35,515 nt of DNA from Candidatus Sungiibacteriota bacterium (GTDB lineage: Bacteria; Patescibacteriota; Minisyncoccia; Sungbacterales; HO2-52-23), in contig JACPMG010000024.1 of the NCBI GenBank assembly GCA_016186095.1, positions 1 to 35,515 on the forward strand, read 5' to 3'. Shown here one piece after another: positions 8,182-35,515 of this stretch. The notes beneath the pieces are model-generated. The model saw only the letters and a program-made list of their open reading frames with translations, was not told the DNA's origin and did no database searches. The position numbers were made by a program, and so were the translations under genes. Within the stretch, counting starts at the first letter, position 1, and every line of letters starts with the position of its first letter.

Positions 8182-8412
8182 CTATCTTTTATCTTCTTTG
8201 GTAAGTTTACCGAGTTTCTCGAGGTGCGCGCGTTCTTTGGCCTTTTTGATTCGCATCATAGCGCGCTCCCGCACAGCACGTTTCGTGAGTTTTGACTGAT
8301 AGAATCTTGTCCTGCGCGCACGGATCAAAACTCCGGAGAGCTGCATTCTCCTGGTAAAACGGCGGAGCATCGCTCCGGTGGTTTCATTTTCTTTTCTTCT
8401 TACTTCAACCAT
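8182..8412 (-). CDS. rpsU: 30S ribosomal protein S21
   Basis: MVEVRRKENETTGAMLRRFTRRMQLSGVL...RKxKxKRxRA-like basic tail. Confidence 0.9.
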   Translation of the reverse strand: MVEVRRKENETTGAMLRRFTRRMQLSGVLIRARRTRFYQSKLTKRAVRERAMMRIKKAKERAHLEKLGKLTKEDKR

Positions 8413-8420
8413 ATCTTCGG

Positions 8421-8500
8421 CTACGAAATACGAAAAGGTACGAAACTACGAAACCATATTAATAATCTTTCGTACTTTCGTAAAATTTCGTACTTCGTAG
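8421..8500. repeat. CTACGAA...TTCGTAG intergenic inverted repeat, copy 1
   Basis: ctacgaaatacgaaaaggtacgaaac...tttcgtacttcgtag; exactly spans HIT stop to rpsU start. Confidence 0.85.
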
Positions 8501-8506
8501 AGAACA

Positions 8507-8851
8507 TCAGACATTTATCTTTCTCTCCTCCCCTCCTCTCCATCCTCCCAAAAGATGCAGATGTAGATGGTCAATCACTTGTCCTCCTTCTCGTCCTACA
8601 TTAAACACTAACTTATATCCTTTCAAGCCCAGCTCCTCAGCGACTTTCTTTGCCGTATAAATCAGTTTGGTAATAGTATCGCTGTGGTCTGCCTCAAGAT
8701 GTGCGATGGATTGAATATGGACTTTGGGTACAACCAGAAGATGCACCGGCGCCTTGGGATGGATATCTTTGAAAATTTTTACATCCGCATCTTCATAGAC
8801 AGTTTCGGACGGGATTTCGTTTTTGGAGATTTTACAAAAAAGGCACTCCAT
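8507..8851 (-). CDS. HIT family protein (Hint-like)
   Basis: MECLFCKISKNEIPSETVYEDADVKIFKDIHPKAPVHLLVVPKVHI...HLHLHLLGG. Confidence 0.95.
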   Translation of the reverse strand: MECLFCKISKNEIPSETVYEDADVKIFKDIHPKAPVHLLVVPKVHIQSIAHLEADHSDTITKLIYTAKKVAEELGLKGYKLVFNVGREGGQVIDHLHLHLLGGWRGGEERKINV

Positions 8852-8859
8852 CGTTTGGG

Positions 8860-8931
8860 CTACGAAATACGAAGCTTTACGAATATACGAAAATTAGATT
8901 TCGTAATTTTGTACTTTTTCGTATTTCGTAG
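8860..8931. repeat. CTACGAA...TTCGTAG intergenic inverted repeat, copy 2
   Basis: ctacgaaatacgaagctttacgaa...ttttcgtatttcgtag between the HisRS-like stop and HIT start. Confidence 0.85.
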
Positions 8932-8937
8932 CGAAGT

Positions 8938-12037: not shown

Positions 12038-13993
12038 ATGCAAGAGATGGCAGAACTCTTGATCGCATCCGTCACCCCCCAAAATTTGGAACGGGGCGCT
12101 TTGTGGTTTAAAGAAAATTTTGATTCCATCAAACGCGCGCAGGGCTCCAGCCCCTGGTGGAGTAATAATGCGCTGATTATTGAAAAAGACCGGGTTATAA
12201 AACTATCCGAATTTCTACGCCGACTTGCTAATTTAGGATACGAGCGGGCGCAGGTCGTGGTAGGCAAAGGACTCGTGGCCGTTCACGGAGGTGTGGTGGA
12301 ACTTTGGCCGATCAACACCGAAAAACCGTATCTCGTAGAATTTCTGGGGAATACTATCGTTGAGATCAAAGAGAGGCACGATACGGCAGAAAAAATAAAA
12401 CTCCGGGTCCCTACGCGCAGTATAGAAAAGCTCGCGTCAGGAAGTTTTGTCGTACATGTGGATCACGGGATTGGTGTTTTCAGAGGAGCGCAAAACGAAT
12501 TTTTTGCCGTAGAATACGCACCAGCAAGAATTGGGGGAATGCCGGACATGCTCTACGTACCCGTAGACCAGAAAAATCGTCTTTCCCCTTACGTTGGGTT
12601 GGAAACGCCCCGGATCCACCGGCTCGGAGGATCCGTGTGGCAGACGACGAAACGCAAGGTTAGAGAAGACGCGGAAAAACTTGCCCGAGAACTCTTACTG
12701 CTTTATGCCAAGCGCGCACTGGTCAGGCGCGAACCGTACTGGGGCGATCAAAGCCTAGAGGAAGAAATACGCGCTACCTTTCTTTACGCGGAGACCGAAG
12801 ACCAGTTGCGGGCCGAGGAAGAAATTATGAAAGATCTCTCCGGAGAAACGCCTATGGACAGGGTACTATGCGGAGACGTGGGTTTTGGGAAAACCGAAGT
12901 GGCGCTTCGCGCCGCACTTCGCGCCATAACCTCCGGGAAGCAAGTAGCACTGCTCTCGCCCACTACCATCCTCGCCGCTCAGCATGAGAAAACATTTCGC
13001 GAGCGGCTCCGAAATCTACCGATTAACGTGCAGATGCTGTCTCGATTAACTCCGCCAAGAGAGGAAAAGGAAATCCTGGAAGATCTAAAAATAGAGAAAA
13101 TAGACGTTATCATCGGAACGCATCGGCTCTTTTCCAAAGACGTTGTTTTCTCCGCCCAAGGCGGATCCGCCCCTGGCGGAAAAAATCTGGGGCTCGTAAT
13201 TATTGACGAGGAGCAGCGCTTCGGCGTCAAGCAAAAAGAGCGCTTCAAAGAAATGCGGTCGGAAATAGATATCCTCTCCTTATCCGCAACCCCCATTCCG
13301 AGAACCCTGTCGCTCGCGCTTGCCAAACTGCGCGACCTCTCGCTTATAGAAACTCCTCCTCCCGAACGCCTGCCTATCACTACCAATGTTTTGCCCCATT
13401 CCAGAAAAATAATTGGGCGTGCCATAAATTTTGAGCTTGAACGCGGAGGACAAATTTACTTTCTTCACAACCGCATTGAGACGCTGGGCGTCATCCGCGA
13501 AAAATTGCGAGCGCTGAAAACAAAAAAGCCGCTCCGCATAGCCATGATGCACGGCAGGATGCGCGAAAAGGAAATACTGCAGGCCATGGATTCTTTCCGC
13601 GAAAGAAAATGTGATTTGCTTCTTGCCACCACCATCATAGAAAACGGTCTGGATATCTCCTCGGCCAATACCCTGATCGTGGATGATGCGACGCGCCTTG
13701 GCCTTGCCGAAGCCCACCAGCTACGCGGGCGCATCGGTCGCGGAGCCACACAGGCATTTGCTTATTTTCTATACAAACCTCGGCATTTGACGGAAAAAGC
13801 CGGCGAGCGGCTGGAAGCATTAAAAGAGTACTCCGACCTTGGCGCCGGATACCAAATTGCTCTACGCGATCTTGAAATCCGCGGCGCGGGGAACATCTTG
13901 GGCCGCGAGCAGTCGGGAGCGATTAACAAAGTTGGATTAAATTTGTATTGTCAGATGCTTGCCGAGGCAATCGAAGAAAAACAAATTAAATAA
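12038..13993 (+). CDS. mfd: Transcription-repair coupling factor, short form (RID plus translocase)
   Basis: CarD-like VVHVDHGIGVFRG, MDRVLCGDVGFGKTEVALRAA, IIDEEQRFGVKQKE, LSATPIPRTLSLAL, HQLRGRIGRG. 651 aa only. Confidence 0.9.
   Translation: MQEMAELLIASVTPQNLERGALWFKENFDSIKRAQGSSPWWSNNALIIEKDRVIKLSEFLRRLANLGYERAQVVVGKGLVAVHGGVVELWPINTEKPYLVEFLGNTIVEIKERHDTAEKIKLRVPTRSIEKLASGSFVVHVDHGIGVFRGAQNEFFAVEYAPARIGGMPDMLYVPVDQKNRLSPYVGLETPRIHRLGGSVWQTTKRKVREDAEKLARELLLLYAKRALVRREPYWGDQSLEEEIRATFLYAETEDQLRAEEEIMKDLSGETPMDRVLCGDVGFGKTEVALRAALRAITSGKQVALLSPTTILAAQHEKTFRERLRNLPINVQMLSRLTPPREEKEILEDLKIEKIDVIIGTHRLFSKDVVFSAQGGSAPGGKNLGLVIIDEEQRFGVKQKERFKEMRSEIDILSLSATPIPRTLSLALAKLRDLSLIETPPPERLPITTNVLPHSRKIIGRAINFELERGGQIYFLHNRIETLGVIREKLRALKTKKPLRIAMMHGRMREKEILQAMDSFRERKCDLLLATTIIENGLDISSANTLIVDDATRLGLAEAHQLRGRIGRGATQAFAYFLYKPRHLTEKAGERLEALKEYSDLGAGYQIALRDLEIRGAGNILGREQSGAINKVGLNLYCQMLAEAIEEKQIK
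13151..13180 (+). repeat. Tandem 15-bp palindromes inside mfd
   Basis: TCCGCC-CAA-GGCGGA TCCGCC-CCT-GGCGGA; encodes SAQGGSAPGG between KDVVF and KNLGLVIIDEEQRFG. Confidence 0.9.
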
Positions 13994-28316: not shown

Positions 28317-29327
28317 TTATACTTCTCTTATCAGTTTGTCCAGTATCCCTCTTAATTCCTCCTCCGAGTAAAACTCCACCACAATTTTTCCGCGCTCGCC
28401 TAATCTTTCAAGTTTCACTTTAGTGCCAAGCTTCTCTTCAAGCCGATGCTGCCAGGAACGCATCTCCGGGTCTTGCACCGCAGCCGGTCTGCGACGCGGC
28501 ACAAAAATTTTACCGGAAACCTGCCGCGCCCTATTTTCCGCCTCGCGCACGGTCAGACGATCCATCACCACGGCGTTATAAACTTCCGTCTGTTTCGTTA
28601 AATCATCACCTGCCATCAGAATCGCCCGCGCATGCCCTTCGGTGATTTTTCCGGAGTGCAAAGCTCCCTGAATTTCTGAAGGAAGCGAAAGAAGACGCAG
28701 GGTATTGGCAATGAGCTCGCGCGATTTTCCAATACGCTCGCCGATTTCGCGCTGTACCAGATGAAACTCATCAATCAACTGCTTGAACGCCCGCGCGCGC
28801 TCCATGGGGTTTAAATCTTCGCGCTGAACATTTTCAATTAAAGCCAGCTCCAGCCGTATACGATCATCCGGAATACCGCGGCGTATCATGGCCGGGATTT
28901 GTAGAAGACCGGCTAGCCTCGCCGCGCGCCACCTTCTTTCCCCAGCAATCAACTGATATCTCACGTCTAAACCCGTAGGGGTTTCAATCTCGCGTTTAGT
29001 TACCAAAATCGGCTGTAATACTCCGTGTTCTCGTATGGAATTTGCTAAATCTTTAAGCGCACTCTCGACAAACTCCCTTCGCGGCTGAAAAGGATTGGGT
29101 TCTATCTTTTCCACCTCGATCCAAAAAACCGAATCGCTCCTTTTGGGGGTGAAGTGATCCTGGAAATTGGAAACACGAGGCCTGCCCAATTCGGATAAAA
29201 AAACTTTTGGCCTTTCCTCCTGTTTCGGCTCGGATAAATTCTCCTGCATAGTATCTGAAATAGCCGGCACCTCGTCCGGTTGTTTGTCTGGAATTAATGA
29301 CTCCAATCCCTTTCCAAGTGGCTCCAT
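28317..29327 (-). CDS. parB: Chromosome partitioning protein ParB
   Basis: PNPFQPRREFVESALKDLANSIREHGVLQPILV, YQLIAGERRWRAARLAGL, HTH. Start set to MEPLGKGLESLIP; the ORF extension to 29390 translates a repeat. Confidence 0.95.
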   Translation of the reverse strand: MEPLGKGLESLIPDKQPDEVPAISDTMQENLSEPKQEERPKVFLSELGRPRVSNFQDHFTPKRSDSVFWIEVEKIEPNPFQPRREFVESALKDLANSIREHGVLQPILVTKREIETPTGLDVRYQLIAGERRWRAARLAGLLQIPAMIRRGIPDDRIRLELALIENVQREDLNPMERARAFKQLIDEFHLVQREIGERIGKSRELIANTLRLLSLPSEIQGALHSGKITEGHARAILMAGDDLTKQTEVYNAVVMDRLTVREAENRARQVSGKIFVPRRRPAAVQDPEMRSWQHRLEEKLGTKVKLERLGERGKIVVEFYSEEELRGILDKLIREV

Positions 29328-29334
29328 AGTGTGG

Positions 29335-29405
29335 CTACGAAATACGAAAAAATACGAAACTACGAAACCGGTTTTCGTATATTCGTACACTTTCGTATTT
29401 CGTAG
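29335..29405. repeat. CTACGAA...TTCGTAG intergenic inverted repeat, copy 3
   Basis: ctacgaaatacgaaaaaatacgaaac...actttcgtatttcgtag between parA stop and parB start. Confidence 0.85.
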
Positions 29406-29408
29406 AGA

Positions 29409-30349: not shown

Positions 30350-30357
30350 TGTCCTAT

Positions 30358-30441
30358 GCCGCGGTGGCGGAACCGGCAGACGCACGGGACTCAAAATCCC
30401 GCGAGGGTAACCTCATGAGAGTTCGACTCTCTCCCGCGGCA
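30358..30441 (+). tRNA. tRNA-Leu (anticodon CAA), 3' CCA not encoded
   Basis: Acceptor GCCGCGG/CCGCGGC, D-arm, anticodon loop CTCAAAA, long variable arm, T-loop GTTCGACTC. Confidence 0.95.
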
Positions 30442-30457
30442 TATCGAATCATATCTT

Positions 30458-30487
30458 TCCGCCAAAGGCGGATCGTCCTCTGGCTGA
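30458..30487 (+). repeat. Tandem 15-bp palindrome, second unit degenerate
   Basis: TCCGCC-AAA-GGCGGA followed by TCGTCC-TCT-GGCTGA; same layout as in mfd. Confidence 0.75.
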
Positions 30488-31411: not shown

Positions 31412-31437
31412 ATTTGATTGGTTTTTAGAATTTGCCG

Positions 31438-31472
31438 CCCCATACTTCGCCAAAACTTCGTAGGGCAAGGCA
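31438..31472 (+). repeat. TTCGC-AAA-CTTCG repeat, intergenic copy
   Basis: CCCCATACTTCGCCAAAACTTCGTAGGGCAAGGCAA, about 23/28 identical to the PAP2 copy over ttcgc...gcaa. Confidence 0.6.
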
Positions 31473-31495
31473 AAAAACTTGCTTGTCCGCCGTCC

Positions 31496-31531
31496 AAATT
31501 CAATACGCCACCCGGGTGGCGTATTGAATTT
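31496..31531. repeat. 36-bp perfect spacerless palindrome
   Basis: AAATTCAATACGCCACCC|GGGTGGCGTATTGAATTT. Confidence 0.9.
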
Positions 31532-31618
31532 AGACGTATCTATAACAAAAATCCCCCGGGCTTTTTTATTTTTGATAACTATATATACTATCAACAGAAC
31601 AACCATCTGGGGGGGCGA

Positions 31619-31975
31619 ATGGATACTTTTATCAAACTTACCGATGCGGCGGTCAGAGCGATAAAAGCGGACGCGGGAAATAAAGGGATCTCTTTGAGGG
31701 AAGTTTATCTGCGCGTTGGGATTTCGAGCGCGGCATGCTGCGGCTTCTTATATCTTCTGGAGTTCACAAGGGAAAAAGCTCCGGATGATCACGAACTGGA
31801 GATCAGCGGTATCAAGGTGCTGGTTGATAATAAAAGCCGCCCACATCTTGAAGGCGCCGAAATCGATTACGTAACGGCAGGCGATCTTCTTGCGGCCGGC
31901 TTTACTTTCCGTAATCCGAATGCGCCGCCGGCTTGCGGATGCGGAAAAACACACTCTCCTGATGAGGAGAAATAA
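31619..31975 (+). CDS. HesB/IscA (A-type) Fe-S cluster protein
   Basis: MDTFIKLTDAAVRAIKADAGNKGISLREVYLRVGISSAACCGFLYLLEF...IDYVTAGDLLAAGFTFRNPNAPPACGCG. Confidence 0.88.
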   Translation: MDTFIKLTDAAVRAIKADAGNKGISLREVYLRVGISSAACCGFLYLLEFTREKAPDDHELEISGIKVLVDNKSRPHLEGAEIDYVTAGDLLAAGFTFRNPNAPPACGCGKTHSPDEEK

Positions 31976-32133
31976 TGATCACCTTGTCGGAGGCCATCAT
32001 CGGCGGCAGCATCGTAATCATTTTCTTCCTCGTCCTTTACGGCTTCATCTTCTTCGGAGTAATCTTCACCCTTACCGAAACGCTGCCTAATTGGTGGAGA
32101 AACCGAAAAAAGAAATCGCCCAGAGCGGCCTAG
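31975..32133 (+). CDS. 52-aa membrane protein coupled to the A-type protein
   Basis: TAATG overlap; SD GAGGAG; MITLSEAIIGGSIVIIFFLVLYGFIFFGVIFTLTETLPNWWRNRKKKSPRAA*. Below the ORF-track cutoff. Confidence 0.7.
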   Translation: MITLSEAIIGGSIVIIFFLVLYGFIFFGVIFTLTETLPNWWRNRKKKSPRAA

Positions 32134-32145
32134 GCCGCTCTTTTC
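32122..32145 (+). terminator. Intrinsic terminator
   Basis: AGAGCGGCC-TA-GGCCGCTCT-TTTC; overlaps the stop codons of both convergent genes. Confidence 0.65.
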
Positions 32146-32720
32146 ATTTTTCTAAACTTCCGAAAAAGAAAGTGGATGGTAAAAGCGGTCCCTACGCCCG
32201 CAATCGCGCCCGCCAAAATGTCGCTTGGCCAATGTACCCCGGCAGCCACGCGGCCAAGGCTGATGGAAAACGCCGCGAGAAAAAATAAAATGCTCGTTTT
32301 TGGATAGTAAAACGAAACCGCAGTCGCCACGGCGAAAGCAAGAGAGGCGTGTCCGGAGGGAAAAGAGCCTCCGCTTACGTGGGGAATGAGTTGAGTTATG
32401 TGATCCGCTCCCGCCTTCGCTAAAGCTTCGGCGGGCAAGTCAAACGGCCGCGGACGATTGTAGGAAAAACGGATGAGCTCGGTCACGACGAAGCGCGCGA
32501 CAAACGCGGAGACAAAAGTAAAAATAAAAAGCTCGGTATTGCGCCGCCTATAACTCCTGAATTTCGAAACAAGGGTAATAACTACAAATAGCGCCACGGC
32601 GGCCATCACGATATACCAAAGATAGGTTGCGCAAAAAATTATCAGCGCATCCCACAAGGGGCGTACTCCGGCCCAGGAGTTTAACCAACGGAAAATTGTA
32701 ACGTCCCAGTACTCAAACAT
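32130..32720 (-). CDS. PAP2-family phosphatase
   Basis: NRPRPF, SGGSFPSGHASLAFA, RVAAGVHWPSDILAG. Confidence 0.93.
   Translation of the reverse strand: MFEYWDVTIFRWLNSWAGVRPLWDALIIFCATYLWYIVMAAVALFVVITLVSKFRSYRRRNTELFIFTFVSAFVARFVVTELIRFSYNRPRPFDLPAEALAKAGADHITQLIPHVSGGSFPSGHASLAFAVATAVSFYYPKTSILFFLAAFSISLGRVAAGVHWPSDILAGAIAGVGTAFTIHFLFRKFRKMKRAA
32410..32435 (-). repeat. Palindromic repeat inside the PAP2 gene
   Basis: CCCGCCTTCGCTAAAGCTTCGGCGGG; encodes PAEALAKAG between RPRPFDL and DHITQLIPH. Confidence 0.75.
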
Positions 32721-34241: not shown

Positions 34242-34490
34242 TTATAATCTTTTGTGGACCTGCCAAGACAAAATTTTTGGTTGCGAAGTATCGGTGACTA
34301 ACGAGGCGGTCTGAAATTCACATCTAGCTTCCCTCGGCGTCTTACCGTTGAGTGGGGTATATACTGGACCTGGGGCACCCATGACCATCTCTGTCGCTTG
34401 AAACCGATTGCTCGCCAAAACCCTGACTACCAAAAGACGATCGCCCATCTTAAAGCTGACTTCATATAGTCTTATTGAAACCTCCTGCAA
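34242..34490 (-). CDS. Hypothetical protein, start uncertain
   Basis: Contiguous ORF after glyA; SD AGGAGG lies in the glyA C-terminus, but no in-frame ATG at normal spacing. Confidence 0.45.
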   Translation of the reverse strand: MQEVSIRLYEVSFKMGDRLLVVRVLASNRFQATEMVMGAPGPVYTPLNGKTPREARCEFQTASLVTDTSQPKILSWQVHKRL

Positions 34491-35515
34491 AGATCTTTTA
34501 CCTCTTTGTTTATAACACGCGGGTTATTCTTTATCAACGTCCCATAAATCAACCGCGCAATATCTTTCATCTGTTTTTCTTTCATTCCCCTAGTCGTAAC
34601 CGACGGCGTGCCGATGCGGATTCCCGAAGGATCAAAGGGCGAGCGGGTATCGTATGGAATAGTGTTACGATTTACAACGATCCCTACTTCTTCCAGCCGG
34701 TCTTGCGCTTCGCGTCCGGAAATTCCCATATTGGTCAGGTCGATCAACATTAAATGATTGTCCGTGCCGCCAGAGACGAGATTAAGCCCTAGTTTCGTCA
34801 ACTCTCGTGCCAGGGCTTTGGCGTTTTTTACAATTTGTTTCCCGTATTTTTTGAATGAGGGCTTCATTGCCTCGCCAAGACACACCGCGATCGCCGCGGT
34901 CTGATTGTCATGCGGCCCGCCCTGCAAAGCAGGAAAGACCGCCCTGTTGATTTCTTTGGCCATGTCAATTCCGTTGCGTTTGGCAATTTTCGATTTGCGA
35001 TTTGCGAATATAATCGCGCCCCTCGGCCCGCGTAAAGTTTTATGAGTGGTCGTAGTTACCACATCGGCGAGGGCCTGTCCGCCTCTGGCGGAAAACGGCA
35101 ATGGATGCGCTCCTGCGGCAATGAGTCCGGCAATGTGTGCCATATCCACCATGAAATACGCGCCAACTTCATCCGCAATTTTTCTAAACTTGTTGAAATC
35201 AAAAATGCGAGGGTAGGCGGTGGCGCCGGCTACAATGATTTTTGGTTTTTCTTTTCGCGCAAGCTTTCGCACCTCCTCGTAATTAATATAACCATCACGG
35301 CCCACCGTATATTGTACGGATTTATAAAACCTCGCGGAAAAATTAACTTTCCAGCCGTGGGTCAAATGTCCGCCAAAAGGTAAACTCATCCCCATGATAG
35401 TATCGCCCGGATTTAACAGCGCGTAATATACCGCCATATTCGCGGGCGATCCAGAATAGGGCTGTACATTCACGTGCCAGTTTTTACCCAAGTGAAACGC
35501 TTTTCGCGCACGTTC
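34472..35515 (-). CDS. glyA: Serine hydroxymethyltransferase (5' part outside window)
   Basis: ERARKAFHLGKNWHVNVQPYSGSPANMAVYYALLNPGDTIMGM, MVDMAHIAGLIAAG, DVVTTTTHKTLRGPRGAIIF. Frame is open to the window edge. Confidence 0.96.
   Translation of the reverse strand, partial: ERARKAFHLGKNWHVNVQPYSGSPANMAVYYALLNPGDTIMGMSLPFGGHLTHGWKVNFSARFYKSVQYTVGRDGYINYEEVRKLARKEKPKIIVAGATAYPRIFDFNKFRKIADEVGAYFMVDMAHIAGLIAAGAHPLPFSARGGQALADVVTTTTHKTLRGPRGAIIFANRKSKIAKRNGIDMAKEINRAVFPALQGGPHDNQTAAIAVCLGEAMKPSFKKYGKQIVKNAKALARELTKLGLNLVSGGTDNHLMLIDLTNMGISGREAQDRLEEVGIVVNRNTIPYDTRSPFDPSGIRIGTPSVTTRGMKEKQMKDIARLIYGTLIKNNPRVINKEVKDLCRRFQ
35078..35092 (-). repeat. 15-bp palindrome inside glyA
   Basis: TCCGCC-TCT-GGCGGA; encodes part of FSARGGQAL in a normally compact stretch before ADVVTTTTHKTLRG. 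Confidence 0.75.

Follow-up and report, generated by a model that had tools for sequence, protein, structure and literature searches.

A 30-bp double-hairpin element in frame in mfd and other core genes of Patescibacteria, probably a non-autonomous mobile DNA

The mfd-like gene of the window (the whole 35,515-nt stretch of DNA analysed) contains a short palindromic segment that is read through in frame and adds ten residues to the encoded protein. This locus raises the question of what the segment is and how it came to lie in such a gene.

Anatomy of the element and its copies in the host genome

The segment has the sequence TCCGCCCAAGGCGGATCCGCCCCTGGCGGA and, consistent with the initial annotation, the translation of the mfd ORF reads it as SAQGGSAPGG. 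The annotation had described it as a tandem 15-bp palindrome. Two palindromic units are indeed present, but they do not form a direct repeat of a 15-mer. The layout is TCCGCC-NRA-GGCGGA/TCCGCC-TYN-GGCGGA, that is, two abutting hairpins with 6-bp stems and 3-nt loops and without a spacer. Because the loops are mirrored, with NRA first and TYN second, the segment is one 30-bp inverted doublet that is alike on both strands. When up to one mismatch was allowed, TCCGCCNNNGGCGGA had four matches in the window versus 0.12 expected. The partly decayed two-unit copy previously noted after tRNA-Leu was recovered by the covariance model described below (Table 1).

Table 1. Coordinates of the element, its parts and its local copies in the window. 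Slashes in peptides mark element boundaries.
Feature	Position	Strand	Description
mfd-like gene	12038..13993	+	651 aa; matches to UvrB-interaction, CarD/RID, DEAD and Helicase_C domains; element = residues 372-381
30-bp double-hairpin element (inverted doublet)	13151..13180	.	in mfd; encodes S-A-Q-G-G-S-A-P-G-G on +; covariance model 52.5 bits, E 1e-12
Hairpin 1	13151..13165	+	stem TCCGCC/GGCGGA, loop CAA
Hairpin 2	13166..13180	+	stem TCCGCC/GGCGGA, loop CCT (mirror-type loop)
Left flank of insertion site	13145..13150	+	GTTTTC; family consensus R-W-N-T-T-Y
Right flank of insertion site	13181..13186	+	AAAAAT; family consensus R-A-A-N-W-Y
Element copy, partly decayed	30458..30487	.	3 mismatches; 16 bp 3' of tRNA-Leu(CAA) 30357-30442; covariance-model E 1.3e-8
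Half element, one intact hairpin	35078..35092	.	in frame in glyA/SHMT (34472-35491, -), HPLPF/SARGG/QALADVV; other half eroded

To place these copies in context, the host genome (680 kb in 32 contigs) was searched and the stretches around matches were inspected. TCCGCCNNNGGCGGA had 30 exact matches in the whole genome versus none for a reversed-pattern control. Twenty of the 30 pair into 10 exact 30-bp doublets, five further doublets carry 1-3 mismatches, and the covariance model detected ~20 doublets at E below 1e-6. In the doublets, an NRA loop generally precedes a TYN loop. The exact 30-mer with the loops of the mfd copy, proposed earlier as a query, is single in the genome; it is the doublet with other loops that is repeated. 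As had been anticipated, insertions also occur in other ORFs, with in-frame copies in gyrB, atpA, atpB, nth, argS, dnaJ, infB and the genes for a sigma factor and a leucyl aminopeptidase, in addition to mfd. Long, 51-bp forms of the element were observed at L033:1591-1641, L022:1520-1570 and L016:1555-1605, in which a 21-bp second palindrome (CTGCCCGACCGGCAGGCGGGC) is nested centrally and the frame is kept. The 20-mer core of the nested palindrome has five matches in the genome.

So short a sequence, containing GGATCC, might be an adaptor or oligonucleotide introduced during sequencing or assembly. However, loops differ between copies, decayed copies exist and the reading phase is biased. Moreover, some insertions are common to related genomes and the element was seen in many independent projects. 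We consider the probability of an artefact negligible.

Other palindromes occur in the window. Within the ORF of a PAP2-type phosphatase at 32130-32720 (-), the segment LPAEALAKAGADH is encoded by the inverted repeat CTTGCCCGCCGAAGCTTTAGCGAAGGCGGGAGCG, which may represent another in-frame palindromic insertion. Positions 31491-31536, in the 5' part of ORF 31418-31975, comprise a 46-bp near-perfect palindrome (CGTCCAAATTCAATACGCCACCC / GGGTGGCGTATTGAATTTAGACG, 96% complementary) whose core 12-mers recur in the genome stretches examined. Finally, three copies of a long inverted repeat composed of CTACGAAATACGAAA units, at 8409-8503, 8848-8934 and 29323-29408, lie between genes or at gene ends.

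Pairing and distribution of the element family

Without regard to the loops, 1.23 Mb of sequence was scanned for two abutting perfect 6-bp/3-nt hairpins. The scan yielded 164 TCCGCC/TCCGCC doublets and 13 perfect doublets with at least one other stem, the latter versus about 0.07 expected from base-pair odds. The other stems include TCAGGC/CCAGGC, CTCGCC/TGCGCC and TCACCC/CCAACC, and most of these doublets keep the NRA/TYN loops. With the loop order swapped, the number of matches fell from 19 to 2, each of which overlaps a real element. When 18 diverse copies were used to build a covariance model, this model matched 26 of 43 relatives; the exact 30-mer is present in 10 of these 43. In genome G037, the model detected ~23 elements although the genome has no TCCGCC/TCCGCC doublet; the copies read there have CCAGCC/GGCTGG or TCAGCC/GGCTGA stems, mostly together with TCCGCC/GGCGGA. 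The element had no significant match in Rfam. Overall, pairing defines the family to a greater extent than the letters of the stems do.

One long hairpin was considered as the conserved fold and rejected: the two-hairpin fold pairs 99.5 versus 83.8% of variant cells. This count is in part circular, as the two-hairpin fold had itself been the criterion for selecting the variants; the unbiased part is the excess of 13 over 0.07.

The exact doublet was found in 18 of 93 relatives and in 28 of 380 genomes sampled throughout the phylum, the highest number in any one genome being 19 copies. In a collection of species genomes, at least 118 stretches contain the element. Among the matches listed, Patescibacteria are represented by Kaiserbacteria, Doudnabacteria, Uhrbacteria, Nomurabacteria, Giovannonibacteria and others. 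Outside Patescibacteria, the matches listed include Omnitrophota and Kiritimatiellae, with several cases each, as well as Lentisphaerae, Auribacterota, Margulisiibacteriota, Firestonebacteria and Ignavibacteria, and single bins of Chloroflexota and Deltaproteobacteria. The single cases outside Patescibacteria are weak because bins can be contaminated. Viral carriage was considered and rejected, with 1 match in 2.9 million viral contigs. A search of the open-access literature found no paper with these sequences or peptides in this sense.

Insertion sites and reading phase

The initial annotation had expected the ten residues to be absent from most Mfd relatives. Mfd sequences that span the site are available from 18 relatives within the family or order; all 18 lack the ten residues, and most of these proteins read F/KNLGL across the site (the slash here and below marks the junction). 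In one example, with 70% identity, the empty site reads KDTVF/KNLGLVIIDEEQ. Alignments of the host Mfd with its best PDB matches likewise contain exactly ten gap positions where the element lies. Extra residues are also present at the elements in GyrB and AtpA of the host genome, and the 9-10 aa are missing from solved structures of these two proteins and of Mfd. Mfd was also modelled with AlphaFold2 from a 12-sequence alignment (mean pLDDT 76). In this model, a short helix (362-365) and a strand (384-390) flank the element, of which residues 373-381 have a pLDDT below 50. The segment is thus modelled as a low-confidence loop between helix and strand before motif II, and the plain reading of the model is that of a tolerated flexible loop.

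Mfd orthologues L260 (G003), L269 (G005), L271 (G006), L278 (G009) and L280 (G010) have other in-frame insertions of 15-35 aa at different positions, which most neighbours lack. Several of these are visibly palindromic, such as AACCCCGTTAGAGAT...ATCTCTAACGGGGTT in G009. Palindromes inserted in frame thus seem to be frequent in this group and to extend beyond one element family.

Filled and empty versions of a site were compared at several loci. L115 contains two tandem copies of a segment, one filled and the other empty, with 31 + 19 identical flanking bases. The intact tRNA-Ile of L047 has 12 + 10 bases around the site in common with a remnant that lies downstream of it; for the intact tRNA-Asn of L020 and its damaged copy, the figure is 20 + 6. 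The net difference in each of the three pairs is 30 bp. Among congeners of genus g245, rluD-like and gltX-like genes, named from their translated context, have gained a net 30 bp in one species. Two further genes of these congeners are less clean: nusA differs by 33 bp, not 30, and gyrA, filled in two species, by a net 15-18 bp, not 30. The target-site duplications that the annotation had suggested looking for were absent from the filled and empty sites in L115, L047, L020, rluD-like and gltX-like. As far as aligned sequences can show, one genome has the element where its relatives have an empty site, exactly 30 bp having been added without duplication and preferentially at TTY/RAA. The mobility that had been put forward earlier as an inference is therefore supported by clean filled and empty pairs and by presence and absence among congeners.

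The preference for TTY/RAA was derived from the flanks, in which position -2 is T in 83%, position -1 is T or C in 84%, position -3 is T in 58% and position -6 is a purine in 71%. The resulting consensus, RWNTTY/RAANWY, reflects a symmetric bias that is the same in coding and noncoding copies. The preference is weak, at about 4 bits, and represents a leaning to TTY/RAA, not a fixed site. Intrinsically palindromic target sites were ruled out, the left and right flanks having no complementarity beyond the consensus. Several noncoding copies lie in the T-arm-like GGTTC/RAATCC of tRNA remnants. No interrupted intact tRNA gene was found, the tRNA-like insertions being in T-arm remnants or a damaged copy. 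A variant doublet with TCAGCC/TTCGCC stems was observed in GGTTC/GAATCC of tRNA-like T-arms in two genera (L020:1631-1660 and 2047-2076; L326:482-511); one interrupted tRNA-like copy with this variant also has a palindrome in its D-loop region.

The loops and reading phases were examined in 145 distinct exact doublets. Read in the NRA sense, the third loop base is A in 94% and the second is A or G in 90%. Ninety-four of the 145 lie within ORFs of at least 150 aa, where phase 0 (S-A-x-G-G-S-A-x-G-G) is represented by 84, phase 1 by 6 and phase 2 by 4; a few of these ORFs are not genes because ORFs were called by length alone. In a strict set, limited to ORFs that are 200 aa or longer and in which 40 or more residues separate the element from each end, phases 0, 1 and 2 account for 60, 2 and 2 copies (60/64 in phase 0). 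When these ORFs were scored with a weight matrix of the target, the predicted share of phase 0 was 50-54% (p about 1e-12 or less versus observed), so the target preference explains only part of the bias. Among the strict phase-0 copies, the residue before the element is F in 32/60 and the residue after it is K in 32/60. The other two phases encode RxRRIRLxR and PPxADPPxA, which are arginine-rich and proline-rich, respectively. These data show that genes retain the element almost exclusively in one phase, which yields SAxGGSAxGG whichever strand is read. Judging from the phase bias, insertions in the arginine-rich and proline-rich phases would be purged, so that core genes would collect the element as a harmless flexible linker.

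A single coding phase, together with a stable RNA hairpin, might instead indicate that the element is retained because it is useful, be it as a linker peptide, as an mRNA hairpin that paces translation or as a regulatory site. Stem conservation over diverged flanks is in keeping with such a role at two common sites. In G291 and G442, gyrA has a common insertion in which all 24 stem bases are kept while the loops differ and the flanks have drifted; the cysteine desulfurase gene of G000 and G003 has another, with all 24 stem bases kept and 67% identity around the element. Flank identity at the two common insertions is roughly 67-75%. By contrast, the genes hit are unrelated, the sites are set by the target motif and neighbours have the same gene without the element. 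Many copies are noncoding or in tRNA remnants, decayed copies exist, and the phase bias is what tolerance alone predicts. Retention for usefulness is therefore improbable. Nevertheless, intact stems over drifted flanks suggest maintenance or repeated insertion and not simple decay, which counts against our preferred explanation, insertion of a mobile element. They may mean that the hairpin is under constraint, that hairpin-templated correction takes place or that the same site was hit more than once.

A cysteine desulfurase-like gene also has a 42-bp palindromic insertion directly 5' of a variant element that encodes SAGGGPASGW (L005:1459-1530). G003 (L327) has this variant element but not the 42 bp.

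Candidate mobilising machinery and comparison with known elements

According to these comparisons, the element is very probably a non-autonomous mobile DNA of exactly 30 bp, consisting of two inverted abutting hairpins. Its exact size, its duplication-free insertion at a short target and its paired stems suggest that an enzyme recognises it as a folded hairpin and inserts it in trans. The machinery would recognise the hairpin folded in single-stranded DNA or as a cruciform, because the stems vary while pairing stays. An HUH/Y1-like single-strand transposase acting in trans might fill this role, since there is no duplication, the ends are hairpins and the target is short; a Y1/HUH transposase is thus a natural, if weak, candidate. 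Neither a mobilising gene nor an autonomous copy was found. Contig C8 has two inverted hairpins separated by 6.2 kb; an autonomous element bounded by them was considered and rejected, as the hairpins belong to two copies of a longer intergenic repeat and not to a transposon. These inverted copies (L034 ~1480-1680 and L035 ~1320-1620) are of a roughly 150-bp palindromic intergenic repeat that has a central TCCGCC hairpin and no Rfam match.

A similar overall plan is that of REPINs, which are defined as two inverted palindromes able to fold, with compensatory changes, and as non-autonomous; in Pseudomonas fluorescens, the ends of group I start 71 bp apart (PMC3116915). The definition quoted from PMC3733652 adds a tag, GTAG or CGTC, beside the palindrome. 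If the element were a REPIN, it would be a REP doublet moved by a resident RAYT, a Y1 tyrosine transposase. The two inverted hairpin-forming palindromes, the compensatory stem changes and the absence of a target duplication all agree with this explanation, and Y1 genes were found in 15/18 element-bearing versus 43/75 other relatives (Fisher p 0.057). However, in the phylum-wide set Y1 genes occur in 14/27 element-bearing versus 5/15 other genomes, which is not significant, and they were undetectable in G211 (9 copies) and G243 (8 copies), both of which are element-rich and 96-97% complete. Further, none of 20 regions around Y1 genes contains the 30-bp element; the hairpins there have other sequences (ACTTGG.., CTATAGAGG.., TTACGAGG..). 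RAYT/Y1 is accordingly unlikely to be the mobiliser, the first association being weak and not significant across the phylum, and Y1 genes carrying palindromes of their own. The element also differs from REPINs in having no spacer, in its length of 30 bp, in its TTY/RAA flanks without a GTAG/CGTC tag, and in being mostly intragenic and in frame (94/145) where REPINs are extragenic. A REPIN origin is unlikely.

The failure to find a mobiliser is compatible with there being no dedicated transposase. Repair might capture hairpin oligonucleotides or template-switch products at AT-rich breaks, with hairpin-templated correction keeping the stems perfect. This mechanism would also account for perfect stems with varying loops and for clean insertion without duplication. 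Against it, distant phyla share an exact 30-bp unit whose NRA/TYN loops are constrained, and a defined TTY/RAA target is seen alike in coding and noncoding sites; both observations argue for a specific enzyme. We consider repair capture doubtful, on a par with the REPIN explanation, and favour insertion of the folded hairpin in trans.

The initial annotation had likened the element to the Rickettsia palindromic elements (RPEs). RPEs are palindromic repeats of about 150 bp inserted in frame in unrelated genes, to which they add a conserved peptide (PMC10969869). The likeness holds for the mode of action, as the 30-bp element is likewise a palindrome in frame in many unrelated genes and adds a conserved peptide, but not for membership: RPEs as described are ~150 bp long, defined by sequence and found in Rickettsia, whereas the element is 30 bp, defined by pairing and present in Patescibacteria and several other phyla. 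The element is therefore a member neither of the RPEs, which differ in size and host, nor of the REPINs, which differ in location, tag and RAYT linkage. Double-hairpin elements of Allomyces mitochondria and the GC clusters of yeast are short hairpin doublets or GC-rich clusters with evidence of mobility (Paquin et al. 2000, as cited in PMC7218506). By that description, they share with the element two adjacent hairpins and presence/absence variation between relatives, but they are organellar, whereas the element is bacterial, of a fixed 30 bp, inserted at TTY/RAA and compatible with the coding frame. Shared ancestry with the fungal mitochondrial elements is unlikely because the type of genome is different. 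Miniature elements of the IS200/IS605 type have hairpin ends, no target duplication and a short fixed target. The element resembles them in its duplication-free insertion at a short target, although its target is a preference and not fixed. It differs in that no HUH gene or autonomous copy is linked to it and in that its hairpins are mutually inverted rather than same-strand repeats.

More broadly, the copies in Patescibacteria and other phyla could constitute a double-hairpin superfamily, defined by pairing and loops, that inserts without duplication by an unrecognised mechanism and adds GGS-type linkers to core proteins; we regard this wider proposal as evenly poised. The question that it poses is which enzyme puts a bare 30-bp hairpin pair at TTY/RAA without duplication. 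If correct, the element would be among the smallest mobile DNAs described, and the most conserved proteins of small-genome bacteria, including gyrase, ATP synthase, Mfd and tRNA synthetases, would have been edited without breakage. The copies would then represent a natural, genome-scale record of the tolerance of essential proteins for 10-residue loops, as well as a marker of recent insertion for uncultured bacteria.
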